Shown here one piece after another: positions 2,441 through 46,387 of a DNA stretch of 46,387 bases (the first letter of the stretch is position 1; every line of letters begins with the position of its first letter). A program made the position numbers and the translations under genes. Below the pieces are notes generated by a model that saw nothing but the letters and a program-made list of their open reading frames with translations, searched no databases and was not told the origin of the DNA. The stretch lies in NCBI GenBank assembly GCA_016199935.1, contig JACQFS010000018.1, positions 82,785 through 129,171 on the forward strand. The letters run 5' to 3'. Source of the stretch: Verrucomicrobiota bacterium. Lineage in GTDB: Bacteria; Verrucomicrobiota; Verrucomicrobiia; Limisphaerales; JACQFS01.

Positions 2441-5400
2441 TCAGGCGTGCGCCACCGGCGGAGCCGATTTTTGCCCCTTGGCCGCGGCGGCAGAAGGTTC
2501 CTTCAACTCACCGAGCCGGACCAGTTCTTGCAGCCACGCGCGGACGCGCTCCGCGTTCACCGGCGCGCAGGTGAAGCCGGCACCCGCGATGGCCGCCTGC
2601 GTTTGGGTTGAATCCACGCGGCCGATTTCCTCCTGACTGCGCAAGGTTTCCGAGCCGACGTCCGGGATGAACATCAGATAGGGAAGCAACAGCCGGCTGG
2701 CCTGGTGGTCCGGGTTTTGGGCGATCGCCTTTTCCCATTCCTCACCGCTGACGAGGCGCACCGGATAGCCGGCGTCCGCCGCCATTTTCAAAATCTCCTG
2801 CAACGTCACGGGCTGCGGATTGACCAGATGGAACGCGCGTCCGGCGGCGTCGGGCCGGCGCGCGATGTGGACCATCGCCTGACTCGCGAAGTCCACCGGC
2901 GTGAGCATCAAGTCATGCCGCCCCTCGGGGCCGCATTTCAGTTCGAGACAGGTGTTCACCAAACGCCACACTCCGTCGTCGGGGCCGGACACGGTGTGGC
3001 CGCTGTCGCCGGGCATCAGGCCCGGGCGGAAAATGGTGACGGGCACGCCGCGCTGGCCGGCGAGTTGGAGGATTTTTTCGGCGACCCACCGGCTCTGCGC
3101 GTAACCGCCGAACAACCGCGCGCTGGCCGGCAACGGGTCCGTTTCAAGTGCCGAGCGTGCCCCGGCCGCGCTCACCGCGCTGAAGACCGCCAGCCCCGAG
3201 AGGTAATGCACCGGCTTGGTGCGGCCGGTCGACGCGAGGCGGATGACTTCGACCGTCGCACCCACGTTGGCCGCCTTGAGATCGGAGTAGCCCGCGATGT
3301 GGTTGACCTTTGCGCCGGTGTGGTAGATGGCGTCCACGGATTCCGCGAGCGCGGCGAATTCCTTTTCCTTGAGGCCGAACCGCGGCCGGCTCAGTTCGCC
3401 GAGCACCGGCGTGACGCGGCGTTCGAGGCCGGCGGTTTCCAGCCCGCGCTGCTTCAACGCGGCGCGCAATTGCGCCAGCGCCCGCTCGGCGCCGGCTTCG
3501 TTGATGAGGCAGAAAATTTTCGCCGACGTGTGGTCGAGCAGCGCGCGCAACAGATGCAGGTCGATATACTCGGCAGTGCCCGTCAGCAGCACGGCGCGCG
3601 GGTCCGTCACCTGCCAGCGCTCGACCGGCCGGCCGTCGAACTTGAGGTCGGCGGGCAGTTGCACCTCGGCCTCGATGGCCGGGTCGCGGTCGTCGGTGAG
3701 CACGAGCTTCTTGGCGTCGCCCGGCTTGCCGGCGTCGCCCGCCGCGCCGCCGCTGAGGCCGAGGGTTTCGAGCAGGCCGTGGGAAATCTTGGTGATGGTG
3801 GGCGTGCCCATCAGCTTGCCGGTGGGGATGCTCACGCCGAGCTGGCTCTCCAGCCGGTGCATCAGCTCCACGGCCATGAGCGAATCCATGCCCTGCTCGT
3901 TGAGCGGGCGGTCCAGGTCGAGCTTGGCGGGGGCGATGCGCAGCACGGCGGCGATCTGGGTGCGGAGAAAATCCTGCACGATGGCGAGCCGCTCGCCGGG
4001 CGGGACGGCGGCGAGGTTGGCGCGCAGGCGCTGGCCCTCGTCGCGCTGATTCATCTGCAACGCCTCGGTCGAGGTGAGCAGCGAGAAGCGCGGCGACTTG
4101 GCGAAGCGTCCCGGCATCTGCGCCCAGCGGCTCCAGTCCACGTTCCACACCGTCGTCTGCGTCGCCCCGGACATGAGCAGCAGGCCGAGCGCGTTGTGCG
4201 CGGCGCGGGTGGTCAGGCCCTCGAGGCCCATGCGGCGGAAATGCTGCGCCAGGCGCGCCTCGCGCGCGACGATGCCGACCTCGGCGAGCAGGCCCCAGTT
4301 GACGGCGAGCGCGGGCAGGCCGAGCCGGCGGCGCTCGTGGGCGAGCGCATCGAGGAACGCGTTGGCCGCGCAGTAATTCGCCTGGCCCGGATTGCCGAAG
4401 GTCGAGCTGGACGAGGAGAACAGCACGAAAAACTGGAGCGGAATTTTTTGCGTGAGCCGGTGGAGATTCCACGCGCCCTCGACCTTGGGTGCCATCACCT
4501 TGTGGAAACGCTCGGGAGTGAGCTGCGGGATCAGCGCATCATCGAGCACCATGGCGGAGTGGATCACGCCCCGGAGCGGCGGCATTTTCGCCGCGATGCG
4601 GGCGAGGAGTTTGGCGACATCGGCTTCGTTCGCGGCGTCGCATTTCGCGAGCACGATCTCCGCGCCGGCGGCGGCCATTTTTTCCAGCGACGCGCGCGTG
4701 CCCTCGGAGGGTTCGGCGCGGCGGCTGGCGAGCACGAGGTGCTTCGCGCCGTTGGCCACCATCCACTCGGCGGTCGCGAGGCCGAAGCCGCCCAAGCCGC
4801 CGGTGATGAGATACGTGGCGTCGGCGGCGAAGCTGGTCGGGACGCTCTTCGGCGGTTCCTCCAACGGCACGGCGTCGGCGTGCATCGAGAGGACGATCTT
4901 GCCGATCTGCCGCGCCTGCGTCATGTAGCGGAACGCGTTGACGGCGTCGCTGAGCAGGAACACGCGGTGGGGCAGCGGCGGCAGTTCGCTGTTGGCGAAC
5001 TGGCGCTTGAGGCCGGCGAGGAAACCGCCGATCGAGCCCGGCTCCATCGCCTTGCTCAGGTCAATGGCGAAGTAGGAGAGGTTGTTCTTGAACGGCCGCA
5101 GGCCGATGCGGGTGTTGCTGTAAATGTCGCGCTTGCCGATCTCGAGGAAACGCCCGTGCGGCCCGAGCACGGCGAGGCTCTTGGCGATGGCCTCGCCGGC
5201 GAGCGAGTTCAACACGAGATCCACGCCGCTGCCGCCGGTCACGTCGAGGATTTCGTCGGCGAACGCCAGCGTGCGCGAGTCGAACACGTGCCGCACACCG
5301 AGCGTGCGCAGGAACGCCCGCTTCTCCGGGCTGCCCGCCGTGGCGAACACCTCCGCCCCCGCCGCGAGCGCGAGCCGCACCGCCGCGAGGCCCACGCCGC

Positions 5401-20671: not shown

Positions 20672-20944
20672 TTTAGGAAATCAATTCCTTGCGCAAGGAA
20701 GCCGGCTCCGTAGGCAAGGAATCCCGTTCCGTAGGCAAGGAAGTCCATTCCGTGTGCAAGGAAATCCCTTCCGTGTGCAAGGACGCGCGTTCCGTGCGCA
20801 AGGAATTCGCCGTCGTGAGCACGGAAGCCCGCACCTTGCGCGCGCCGGATGGAATCGTGCGCAGGCCGGACCATTCCGTGTGCAAGGAACGCGCGGGCGT
20901 GCGCTGGGTTTTGGCCGTCGTGCGCAAGGAAGCGGCGAACGTGC
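20672..20944. repeat. 21-bp periodic array 1 (13 imperfect units)
   Basis: Thirteen units of exactly 21 bp without indels. The core is GCAAGGAA, five variable bases, TTCCGTG. Units at 20693-20797 are well conserved; those from about 20798 are more diverged but keep the phase. There are no spacers, so it is not CRISPR. Frames stay open through it on both strands because 21 is a multiple of three. It lies in the 722-bp gene-free stretch 20369-21091. Confidence 0.9.
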
Positions 20945-21005
20945 GCTCCCCTTCGCGTAGCGGAAGCCGGTTGCCGGTATCGCAGGCTGAACCGCCACGA
21001 AATTA

Positions 21006-28280: not shown

Positions 28281-28376
28281 GAATGACGAATGACGAATGA
28301 CGAATTGAAAACCTCATCGTCCCTGCCGGCGCGGTGCAACTGGCGAATTCCATTCGTCATTCGTCATTCGTCATTC
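28281..28376. repeat. Heptad-based inverted repeat (ATTCGTC family)
   Basis: Perfect 25-bp arms, 28281-28305 and 28352-28376, each built of three and a half copies of a 7-mer (GAATGAC / ATTCGTC). It starts 5 bp after the proC stop and ends 12 bp before the next start codon on the same strand. Confidence 0.9.
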
Positions 28377-28387
28377 GCCATTTGAAC

Positions 28388-29722: not shown

Positions 29723-30097
29723 TCACCGCTTCGTCCGGAAATCCAGCCGCGCGAAACCGTAATCCACCACCCCGGGCTCCGGCCGGAACGCCTCCGGGAT
29801 GTAATAGCACGTGAACCGCGTGTCCGGTTCCCAGTCGCGCGCGGCCACCGCGCCCGTGGCGAGGAGGAGGCGCAGGTGTTTGGCCACCGTGTCGAAATGC
29901 GCGTCCATCTGCCGCGCCAGCTTCTGCGGATAGACCACCTCGCCCTCGGCCATCAACTGCAACGCGCGCCACCGCACCGGCTGGCCGAGCGCGGCAAACA
30001 CCGACACGGGGTCCAACGTCGGCTTGGCGGGAACCGGCGCGGCGGCGGCAATGACCGCCGGGCCGGGCTGGGAGGAGGAAGCATCGGTGGGATTCAT
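29723..30097 (-). CDS. ArsR-type winged-helix transcriptional regulator
   Basis: 124 residues from the ATG at 30097; a TTG 12 codons upstream is possible. After a disordered Ala/Pro-rich start (1-30), the winged helix-turn-helix begins at LGQPVRWRALQLM, with recognition helix around MDAHFDTVAKHLRLLL. No obvious metal-binding cysteine motif, so the inducer is unknown. Upstream lies the second 21-bp array, which would include its promoter. Confidence 0.75.
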   Translation of the reverse strand: MNPTDASSSQPGPAVIAAAAPVPAKPTLDPVSVFAALGQPVRWRALQLMAEGEVVYPQKLARQMDAHFDTVAKHLRLLLATGAVAARDWEPDTRFTCYYIPEAFRPEPGVVDYGFARLDFRTKR

Positions 30098-30137
30098 TGG
30101 GCCAACTTTTCGCTCCGACAAACTGCCTGACAAGTCA

Positions 30138-30480
30138 AATGTAATAGCTTTTAGTCCGGCATCATCTACTTTTTAAGTCAGTGCGGCAGCTTTTTGACTA
30201 GATGTAATAGCTTTTGGTCTGACAACTGCCGTTGCAGTGGCATAAAAAGGTGTTTCAGTCAGGAAAAAAGCCATTGCAGCGACCGAAGAAGCCGTTGCAG
30301 TCATGGAAAAAGCCGGTTCGGTGTGACAAGGAGCCGTTACAGTATGGCAAGAAGCCGATGCAGCAGGTGGCAAAGGCATTTCAACCATCAAAGGAGTCGT
30401 TTCAGCGGCCAAAGAAGTTGTTTCAAATCATTGGACAGACGTTGCCGTATTGTCTCCGGGGATTTCATTGGCACCGGAGG
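30138..30480. repeat. 21-bp periodic array 2 (about 16 imperfect units)
   Basis: Best units lie between 30232 and 30430: GTTGCAG, about 8 variable bases, then AAGCC, repeating every 21 bp without indels. Left of this (30138-30225) a related phase carries GTAATAGCTTTT at 30140 and 30203. The region is more AT-rich than its surroundings and fills the gap 30098-30519 between the ArsR-like and HAD genes. Its sequence is unrelated to array 1. Confidence 0.8.
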
Positions 30481-30519
30481 ATGCGGCAGGGGCGCTTCCG
30501 GGCCTTGCGGCCGTCGCGT

Positions 30520-30945
30520 TCAGCGTTGGTTCGCCAGCCCGAGCCGGACATCCACCGCTTCCATCCCCGCCGCGCGGATCGCCTGCATTCCCAAATCGGC
30601 ATCCTCGTAAGCACGGCAGCAGCGCGGCTCGACCCCGAGCAGCCGGGCGGCTTCGAGGAAAATATCGGGCGCGGGTTTTTGATTTTTCACCATCTCACTC
30701 GTGACCACGGCGGCGAAGAGGTGGCGGATGCCGAGGTGTTCAAGCAGCGAGCAGATGACCTTCTGCGTGCCGCCGCTGGCGACCGCCATCGGGAGCTTGC
30801 CGTGGTTCGCGCGGGCGATTTCGACGACGGCGTGGACGGGCTCGATGTCGCCGAGGGTTTTCAGAAAGGCTTCCTCCTTCTCGTGCAGCGGCATGGTGTC
30901 GGCCAGCGTGCCGTCGCAGTCGAAGATGAGGGCGTGGGGTTGCAT
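30520..30945 (-). CDS. HAD-superfamily phosphatase lacking its cap domain
   Basis: 141 residues from the ATG at 30945. It has HAD motif I FDCDGTLADT, motif II ASGG and motif III KPAP with EDADLG, closest to the beta-phosphoglucomutase/YqaB-type HADs. Those are about 190-220 residues with a helical cap after motif I. Here the sequence jumps from TMPLH straight to EKEEAFL, so about 45-55 residues of cap are missing although the frame is kept. It may be a real deletion, an assembly collapse, or a functional capless form. Without the cap, substrate choice would change. Confidence 0.75.
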   Translation of the reverse strand: MQPHALIFDCDGTLADTMPLHEKEEAFLKTLGDIEPVHAVVEIARANHGKLPMAVASGGTQKVICSLLEHLGIRHLFAAVVTSEMVKNQKPAPDIFLEAARLLGVEPRCCRAYEDADLGMQAIRAAGMEAVDVRLGLANQR

Positions 30946-30957
30946 AAGGAGCAAGAA

Positions 30958-31005
30958 GTGATGCGTAAGGGGGAATTGGATTACGGATTACTCCTTACTC
31001 ATCAC
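30958..31005. repeat. Inverted repeat, TTACTCC heptad family
   Basis: Imperfect arms near 30958-30970 and 30991-31005. The internal block ATTACGGATTACTCC (30980-30994) is identical to that at 440-454. It lies between HAD and prfA on the same strand and touches the prfA stop codon. Confidence 0.7.
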
Positions 31006-32085
31006 TCACAGTTTCAGTTTCGCGAGTCGGTCCTGCAAATCGTGGCTCATCAGTGGTTCGATGATCTCGTCCAGCTCGCCCTCCATCACGTTGGCGAGGT
31101 TGTAAACGGTGAGGTCAATGCGGTGGTCGGTCACGCGGTTCTGCGGGAAATTGTAGGTGCGGATTTTTTCGCTGCGCTCGCCGGTGCCGACCTGCGAGCT
31201 GCGCTGCGCGTCGTATTTGGATTTCTCGTCGGCGAGGCGGCGTTCGAGCAGGCGCGAGCGGAGGACTTTCAAGGCCTTCGTTTTGTTCTTCAGTTGCGAA
31301 CGCTCGTCCTGGCAGCGGACCTCGGTGCCCGTGGGCTTGTGGACGATGCGCACGGCGGAGTCGGTGGTGTTCACGCCCTGCCCGCCGTGGCCGCCGGCGC
31401 GGCAGACCTGGATGTCGAGGTCCTCGGGGCGAATCTCGATGTCCACTTCCTCCGCCTCGGGGAGCACGGCGACGGTCGCGGTGCTGGTGTGGATGCGCCC
31501 CTGCGCCTCGGTCGCGGGCACGCGTTGGACGCGGTGGACGCCGGACTCGTATTTGAGGCGCTTGTAAACATCCTGCCCGTTCACGCCGAAGGTGACGTCC
31601 TTGAAGCCGCCGAGTTCGCTCACGCTGGAATCCATCGGCTCAATTTTCCAGCCGTGCGTCTCGGCGTAGCGCGTGAACATGCGGTAGAGATCGGCGGCGA
31701 AGAGTGCGGACTCGGAGCCGCCGGCGCCGGCGCGGATCTCGATGATGGTGTTGCGCGAATCAGTCGGGTCGGGCGGGACGAGGCCGAACTGCACGTCGCG
31801 CGCGAGCTTCTGCTCGGCGACCTCCAGCCGCGCGACCTCGTCCTTTGCCATTTGCGCCAGCTCGGACTCGGGCGGCTCGGCGGCGAGGAGCGCGCGATTC
31901 CCGGCCAGGTCGGCGGCGCACCTGAGGTAGGCGTTCCCGGTGCCGACGAGTTCTTTGAGGCGGGAGTATTCGCGCGTGAGCTCCTGCCCCTTCTGCTGGT
32001 TGGCAAAGGCGTCGGGACTCGCCAGCGCGGCCTCGACCTCGGCGAGGCGGCGGGCGAATTTTTCGATATAGGGGCGGAGGTTCAT
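31006..32085 (-). CDS. prfA: Peptide chain release factor 1
   Basis: 359 residues. The stop-codon-reading motif PAT (190-192, in HRVQRVPATE) marks RF1, which reads UAA and UAG. The GGQ motif (234-236) that triggers peptide release is intact. prmC, whose product methylates the GGQ glutamine, is 3.3 kb away. It lies downstream of rpmE on the same strand, as in many bacteria, but a rpmE terminator and a hairpin separate them. Confidence 0.97.
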   Translation of the reverse strand: MNLRPYIEKFARRLAEVEAALASPDAFANQQKGQELTREYSRLKELVGTGNAYLRCAADLAGNRALLAAEPPESELAQMAKDEVARLEVAEQKLARDVQFGLVPPDPTDSRNTIIEIRAGAGGSESALFAADLYRMFTRYAETHGWKIEPMDSSVSELGGFKDVTFGVNGQDVYKRLKYESGVHRVQRVPATEAQGRIHTSTATVAVLPEAEEVDIEIRPEDLDIQVCRAGGHGGQGVNTTDSAVRIVHKPTGTEVRCQDERSQLKNKTKALKVLRSRLLERRLADEKSKYDAQRSSQVGTGERSEKIRTYNFPQNRVTDHRIDLTVYNLANVMEGELDEIIEPLMSHDLQDRLAKLKL

Positions 32086-32099
32086 GCGAGCGCAGTAAC

Positions 32100-32160
32100 G
32101 AGTAAGGAGTAATCCGTAATCAGGAAGGAGCCGTGCGTTTTTTTGGATTACTCGTTACTC
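32100..32160. repeat. Inverted repeat, TTACTCC heptad family
   Basis: 16-bp arms with one mismatch (32100-32115 with 32145-32160). The left arm continues as AGTAATCCGTAATC, the same sequence as at 406-419. It lies upstream of prfA, next to the rpmE terminator. Confidence 0.8.
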
Positions 32161-34368: not shown

Positions 34369-34424
34369 CGGCGGGGACCATGAACGGAACGCCCGGCGAT
34401 GTCAAAAACCCGAAGTTCGAAATC

Positions 34425-34530
34425 CGAAATCCGAAACAAATCCCACTTTCAAAATCCGAATGCTCCAAACGGCGCGGCCCGCGGATTCAGTCCCTGCCCG
34501 TTCCGTCATTTGAATTTGTTTCGGATTTCG
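34425..34530. repeat. Heptad-based inverted repeat (TCCGAAA family)
   Basis: Perfect 17-bp arms, 34425-34441 and 34514-34530. The left side reads TTCGAAA, TCCGAAA, TCCGAAA, CAAATCC, with further half-copies outside the perfect stem. It lies in the 187-bp gap between the PepSY-type and LysM genes. Confidence 0.85.
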
Positions 34531-35288: not shown

Positions 35289-35390
35289 GCATTTATGATT
35301 TACGATTTACGATTCTTGATTTGAGCCGCCGCTGAAGCGATGGCGCTTCCCTCCGCCAATCGTAAATCATCAATCGTAAATCATAAATGC
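35289..35390. repeat. Heptad-based inverted repeat (ATTTACG family)
   Basis: Perfect 19-bp arms, 35289-35307 and 35372-35390; 7-mers ATTTATG, ATTTACG, ATTTACG, ATTCTTG. It lies between two divergent genes, so it cannot be a terminator for either. Confidence 0.85.
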
Positions 35391-41120: not shown

Positions 41121-41242
41121 AGGTTATCAGGTTATCAGGTTATCAGGTTATCAGGTTATCAGGTTGCAGGTGGCTGCGACGTTCCCTGATGTCATTCGGC
41201 ACCTGAAAACTTGAAAACTTGATAACCTGAAAATCTGCAACT
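41121..41242. repeat. Octamer-based inverted repeat (AGGTTATC family)
   Basis: Five exact tandem copies of AGGTTATC (41121-41160) plus a variant, facing TGAAAACT-type 8-mers and TGATAACCT (41203-41241) on the right. Perfect pairing is limited to 9-bp blocks. Between two convergent genes. Confidence 0.8.
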
Positions 41243-46324: not shown

Positions 46325-46387
46325 GGCCCCGGAACCGTTCCCCACGTCGCCGGAACCGTTCCCCACGTCGCCGGAACCGTTCCCCAC
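46325..46387. repeat. 21-bp periodic array 3 (cut by window end)
   Basis: Nearly three units of exactly 21 bp in perfect repeat: CGGAACCGTTCCCC followed by ACGTCGC. It begins about 15 bases after the UDP-glucuronate decarboxylase stop and continues past the window edge. Each unit contains the palindrome GGAACCGTTCC. Confidence 0.9.

Follow-up and report, generated by a model that had tools for sequence, protein, structure and literature searches.

Phase-constant 21-bp arrays of mostly unrelated sequence between the genes of a verrucomicrobial draft genome

Introduction

Tandem sites at regular spacing are found in the centromere of the F plasmid, which comprises twelve 43-bp repeats with ten 16-bp inverted repeats to which ParB binds (PMC6238139). 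A different case is that of the Borgs, extrachromosomal elements of Methanoperedens, in which many independent tandem repeat arrays, each with its own unit of ~20 bp, are found in intergenic positions or at gene ends (PMC9879509). The arrays reported here share with those of Borgs their number and independence within one genome, the private unit of ~20 bp and the intergenic position, and they may resemble the F centromere in principle, if dimers bind them side by side as proposed below.

The array from which this study departs (hereafter the focal array) lies between an ArsR-like and a HAD gene in a stretch of 46,387 bp, here called the window, from a Verrucomicrobiota bacterium. The initial annotation of this DNA described about 16 units of a 21-bp period in that gap and suggested an element class defined by period and not by sequence. 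In a literature search we found no earlier description of such arrays.

Data and Analysis

The window forms the terminal part of contig C256, in a draft genome of 5.03 Mb and 260 contigs with an estimated contamination of 4.3%. Judged by the prfA gene adjacent to the focal locus, the collected genomes nearest to it are Verrucomicrobiota MAGs, including Limisphaerales and Pedosphaera-like ones, with at most 74-76% protein identity. Arrays were surveyed in 1.04 Mb (21%) of this one draft genome with a scanner, run at many periods, in which all units within a six-unit window are compared with one another, and genes were called with a simple codon model built for the analysis. At 21 bp, 34 places passed a score of 0.47, and all 15 that exceeded 0.55 are arrays located in gaps. 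The weaker places that we inspected (L024, L173, L185 and the first of L124) resemble coding sequence, which lifts every multiple of three.

Results

The focal array is made up of two head-to-head arms

The focal array occupies most of a 422-bp gap. The start of the ArsR-like gene is just outside the left arm, ~30 bp away, and the stop of the HAD gene lies ~60 bp past the right arm. The features of the window to which we refer are the following.

20683..20955, no strand assigned: array 1, 13 units of the near-palindrome TTCCGTGCGCAAGGAA, period 21, in sequence unlike the focal array
29723..30097, minus strand: winged-helix (ArsR-like) regulator gene, matched weakly by Pfam HTH_29 / HTH_20, under the curated cut-off
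30125..30229, minus strand: left arm, about five diverged 21-bp units such as ATTACATCTAGTCAAAAAGCT, from rows of 21 and profile match
30230, no strand: junction, one base between the head-to-head arms, from unit coordinates on both strands
30231..30461, plus strand: right arm, 11 units with the consensus GTTGCAG-N6-AAAAAGCC, from rows of 21
30520..30945, minus strand: HAD-like hydrolase gene (Pfam PF00702/PF13419, E ~2e-18)
46329..46387, no strand assigned: young 21-bp array of 2.8 identical units CCGGAACCGTTCCCCACGTCG (100% matches), cut by the assembly at the end of contig C256

Between positions 30100 and 30480, the proportion of matches was 0.464 at lag 21, 0.472 at lag 42, 0.462 at lag 63 and 0.428 at lag 84, for an expectation of ~0.25. 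None of 2000 dinucleotide-preserving shuffles of the same segment was as high (z = 9.2 for lag 21 and 17.6 for lags 21-105 averaged), so that the 21-bp autocorrelation, on whose significance the initial annotation had made its reading depend, is indeed significant. The count of about 16 units was also correct, being the sum of five weaker units on the minus strand and 11 on the plus strand; the outer units of the left arm and the final two of the right arm are weak.

The left part had been read as a second consensus (GTAATAGCTTTT) grading into the main one, a reading that we have to replace, since GTAATAGCTTTT is the main consensus on the opposite strand (reverse-complement comparison of the left and right arm profiles, z = 5.8; 0/200 column permutations as high). 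There is therefore no grading: the array inverts at 30230. The arms are not mirror copies of one another, as a comparison of left with right units gives no diagonal. No internal indels were found. The units are 52% alike and leave at most 6 bp of free sequence each, unlike a CRISPR array with its near-identical repeats and unique ~30-bp spacers. No strong dyad is present within the unit (0.34-0.38), and the symmetry resides in the array as a whole, that is, in its two arms. As had been noted, the focal array is fairly described as unrelated to array 1 (profile similarity z = 1.8, p = 0.065).

Two further observations were made in the window. A 626-codon open frame on the plus strand (30232-32112) runs from the right arm antisense across the HAD and prfA genes and is spurious, because the GC content is high. 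At 41121-41233, a perfect 8-bp repeat, AGGTTATC, is present in 5.6 copies and is followed by TGAAAACT repeats.

A sister locus shares unit and layout with the focal array

Searching the whole genome for a pattern of two adjacent focal units retrieved the window and a place on contig C175 at ~17.2-17.5 kb (L022 10193-10508), and the pattern was present as an array at no third locus. This sister locus, which had escaped the initial annotation, consists of six or seven minus-strand units, one base, and seven or eight plus-strand units, with a junction at L022 10340 of the same head-to-head geometry as the focal one. The profiles of the two loci match with z = 7.7-8.3. The genes flanking the sister array are different from those in the window, and Pfam gave no match for them. 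The genome's sole ParB gene (C175:2492-2770) is found ~14 kb from this array.

A single period, many sequences

Fifteen arrays were found in the 1.04 Mb, every one with period 21 and every one intergenic, which extrapolates to ~70 arrays in the whole genome. The same scan revealed no arrays at periods 17, 19, 20, 22, 23, 25, 26, 29, 31, 32, 34 and 40, and a single one at period 41 (L037). Array length is typically ~230-420 bp and alike between loci. The consensus, by contrast, is mostly unrelated from array to array (median pairwise profile z = 0.15), as in TTTGTCACGTGACAAAATAAT (L183), TTTCCACCGGTGGAAATCGGT (L163) and CCACCATGGTCGAACGCCAAC (L189), and a single consensus common to all arrays was rejected, only the focal array and L022 clearly matching.

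Near-palindromic units are found at 11 of 14 loci, a symmetry that was absent from the initial annotation, with Watson-Crick proportions of 0.41-0.68 on the best axis against ~0.25 expected. The exceptions are the focal array and L022, symmetric at the level of the array, and L132, in which the dyad is weak. The symmetry extends to positions only 2 or 3 bases apart (0.43 and 0.60), which are unable to pair in a hairpin, so that a symmetry of the duplex is favoured. Strict covariation between the unit halves was not supported, as the signal is weak and its combined z of 3.4 comes from units related to each other.

The proposed class defined by period, not sequence, is thus borne out, well past the two arrays first noticed, as to the 21 bp common to all 15 arrays and their mostly unrelated consensus; two of its loci do, however, share sequence. 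Period, symmetry and a length of ~300 bp together describe it better than period alone.

The arrays lie between genes of unrelated kinds

All 15 arrays lie in gaps; the two overlaps involve only gene models that are very weak. The gene model gives a coding share of 89% for the sampled sequence, and only 3% of random 300-bp segments are equally gene-free. With 15 arrays for 91 gaps of 300 bp or more, the arrays are not rare in the sampled sequence. Where genes were called on both sides (13 arrays), ten pairs are co-directional, two convergent and one divergent. The neighbours are of unrelated kinds (HNH nuclease, HAD, MnmG, UvrC, BipA, NamZ, beta-propellers, epimerase), and no cognate DNA-binding gene recurs beside each array among the flanking genes. 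Y1 transposase, HU and ParB were considered as lineage-specific partners and discarded, occurring equally in all tested relatives without detected arrays.

The array beside mnmG (L032 1252-1637, contig C2) is situated ~2 kb from two parS-like sites, TGTTCCACGTGGAACA (C2:3687-3702 and 3810-3825), and its units include TGTTCCGGAACA, the half-sites of TGTTCCACGTGGAACA minus the central ACGT.

Units drift by substitution almost without indels

Pairwise unit identity across the arrays is 44-73%. In 14 arrays, we counted ~957 off-consensus cells (substitutions) at consensus columns and 3 internal register shifts, and 12 of the 14 have no shift at all. In non-coding DNA of bacteria, indels usually amount to several per cent or more of substitutions. 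Our scan favours arrays poor in indels, a filter through which the simulated decay also passes; with the same detection, about half of the simulated arrays were free of shifts at 1 indel per 100 substitutions and none at 5 per 100. Drifted copies here therefore do not carry indels at the ratio of a neutral minisatellite, and the drift without indels that the initial annotation pointed out is real, exceeding what the neutral simulation yields. Mutagenic copying aimed at one base was rejected, the substitution spectrum being mixed, with transitions about as frequent as transversions.

Some arrays are young, with identical or nearly identical units that already have period 21 (window 46329-46387, L186 1-100 and L181 12489-12698), and arrays terminate contigs at three contig ends of the draft assembly. 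In the array of L181, variants of the 21-bp unit recur in multi-unit blocks, a higher-order pattern expected from recent block duplication.

Distribution among relatives

No comparable 21-bp array turned up in 40 stretches of the order totalling 478 kb, nor in prfA loci from across the phylum totalling 1.18 Mb. Relatives were sampled lightly, and absence from one 20-kb stretch says little of any one genome; taken together, the stretches are nevertheless informative, since the density of this genome predicts ~7 arrays for 478 kb. The lone 21-bp match among relatives (L118) is a 7-bp repeat. In 320 genomes of the order, the focal consensus at one mismatch was found in 19, about the level of a reversed-pattern control, as single matches and not as arrays.

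Two genomes of one other family (G060 and G061) contain arrays of 41 or 42 bp, so that the pattern occurs, patchily, in at least two families. L244 and L037 have two dyads 20.5-21 bp apart, and in L244, with its palindromes 21 bp apart, both halves of one palindrome change jointly (ACGACAGGCTGTCGA / ACGTCAGGCTGACGT). In G061, two palindromic modules alternate at L230 13901-14343 with slippage between 41 and 42 bp, suggesting that the spacing is slightly looser in that family.

Short drifted 7-bp arrays also occur between genes, in the present genome and in those of several further Verrucomicrobiota, with units such as GAATGAC, CATTCGT, AATCATA and GGGGACA, among others (window 28281-28305, 28351-28382, 34406-34436 and 35291-35388; L080 15704-15912; L118 9597-9835; L261 5056-5210); 21 is three times 7.

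Discussion

The constancy of a spacing of two helix turns suggests that it is preserved for some role at the DNA level. Our preferred reading, to which we give a probability of roughly 0.4, is that the arrays are binding scaffolds with a site every two helical turns, on which one or more dimeric proteins may form a patch that organises the chromosome or insulates transcription units. Constant two-turn spacing, duplex symmetry, length and intergenic position point to DNA as the acting form and to dimers arranged side by side on one helix face. Repeated, usually dyad-symmetric sites would then face the same side of the helix, and a dimeric DNA-binding protein, or several related ones, would bind them over ~300 bp, perhaps cooperatively; the resulting nucleoprotein patch between genes could serve local chromosome organisation or the insulation of neighbouring transcription units. 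As the array sequences differ, one sequence-specific protein could not read them all. Counting for a scaffold are the period of 21 only, the placement in gaps, the few indels, the dyads in 11 of 14 loci, the similar lengths, the 41/42-bp arrays of another family and the two dyads 20.5-21 bp apart in L244 and L037. Counting against it, the focal unit is without a strong dyad, the flanking genes are unrelated in kind, the period of the G061 arrays is not fixed but slips (41 or 42 bp), and HU, ParB and Y1 transposases are not distinguishing.

A bolder and doubtful form of this proposal is that spacing and symmetry, and not sequence, set a chromosome-architecture element of ~70 intergenic arrays, each of ~300 bp with sites every two turns, whose sequence would be free to diverge while phase and symmetry are kept, and which would be read by a protein or filament sensing periodic dyads. 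If the spacing is selected, the arrays would exemplify, in nature, a DNA element whose geometry is conserved while its sequence is not. Elements of such kind are invisible to similarity searches.

The main rival to the scaffold, and a strong one, is that these are functionless minisatellites produced by a 21-bp copying step: lineage-specific slippage or copying, often starting from a local palindrome, would make tandem copies that then decay, and the period would reflect the machinery. This explanation is possible, if short of probable, and it keeps its strength because contig ends also carry young arrays whose units are identical, which break the assembly with period 21 already in place. It also accords with a sequence that differs at nearly every locus and with the tolerance of gaps between genes for insertions. 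On the other hand, strongly drifted arrays are almost free of indels, against the usual bacterial ratio, and free decay would not predict similar lengths and persistent dyads.

Less likely is a transcribed chain of small hairpins acting in mRNA stability, in termination or as structured RNA, the focal locus being a long imperfect hairpin of two arms. Relative to shuffles, folding is somewhat better for the focal plus strand (z = -2.1) and also better for the two strands of the sister locus (z = -4.4 and -4.7); the weak covariation within units (combined z = 3.4) and the ten of 13 two-sided arrays between co-directional genes agree with an RNA as well. Nevertheless, the focal minus strand, the would-be transcribed sense from HAD to the ArsR-like gene, folds no better than shuffles (z = +0.2), the symmetry includes positions too close for hairpin pairing, and hairpins need no fixed two-turn spacing. 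Neither a terminator-like site nor an Rfam match was found, the best hit being at chance level (RAGATH-8, 13.6 bits for a gathering score of 86.7).

For the focal locus only, a multi-site operator of the adjacent ArsR-like regulator could be imagined, given that the array comes within ~30 bp of the winged-helix gene start and probably includes its promoter region. We consider this improbable, as no such gene adjoins the sister locus, which shares unit and layout (its flanking genes lack Pfam matches), other arrays have no consistent regulator alongside, and a sigma-70-like promoter was not found. That the array is part or remnant of a gene coding for 7-aa heptad repeats is hardly credible. In its favour, 21 is divisible by 3 and one plus-strand frame, with heptads like KKPLQxx, stays open through the right arm. 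Against it, the whole focal array, like L022 and L135, has stops in all six frames, which refutes coding for the focal array as a whole, variation is not concentrated at any codon position, the open frame continues antisense to HAD and prfA, and the period of 41 in L037 and its relatives is not divisible by 3.

Several known systems share part of these features. Ordinary minisatellites or VNTRs are likewise tandem, intergenic and partly young and identical, whereas here one period is found genome-wide, strong drift is nearly indel-free, and units or arms are symmetric. REP/BIME sequences, with their REP-associated transposases, are also intergenic palindromes repeated within one genome; they represent, however, one sequence family at many loci, while here one period goes with many sequences, unrelated in consensus except for the focal-sister pair, and the number of Y1 transposases does not exceed that of relatives in which no arrays were detected. 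Phased A-tracts and other helical-period signals of curvature (the topic of PMC3940949) similarly tie spacing to the helical repeat. The focal and sister arrays have one A-tract per 21 bp, but curvature of this kind cannot be a feature of the class because many arrays are GC-rich and without A-tracts. The units of Borgs are error-free, of many lengths, A-rich and about half in genes; those described here are dyadic, intergenic and uniform in length, and they drift (44-73% identity).

With the parS sites of ParB systems the arrays share inverted-repeat motifs at a fixed spacing, in the unit at 11 of 14 loci and at the focal locus only at the level of the array. A parS array as such was rejected: the parS-like TGTTCCACGTGGAACA sites at C2:3687 and 3810 are outside the arrays, the L183 units have only a TCACGTGA core in common with parS, and the genome has one ParB gene, as its relatives do. 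A likeness in principle to the side-by-side binding of dimers that we propose is offered by parS-F (sopC) of plasmid F with ParB/SopB (PMC6238139). In contrast to parS-F and to chromosomal parS, the arrays described here, ~70 by extrapolation, are dispersed on the chromosome and carry a different palindrome at nearly each locus.
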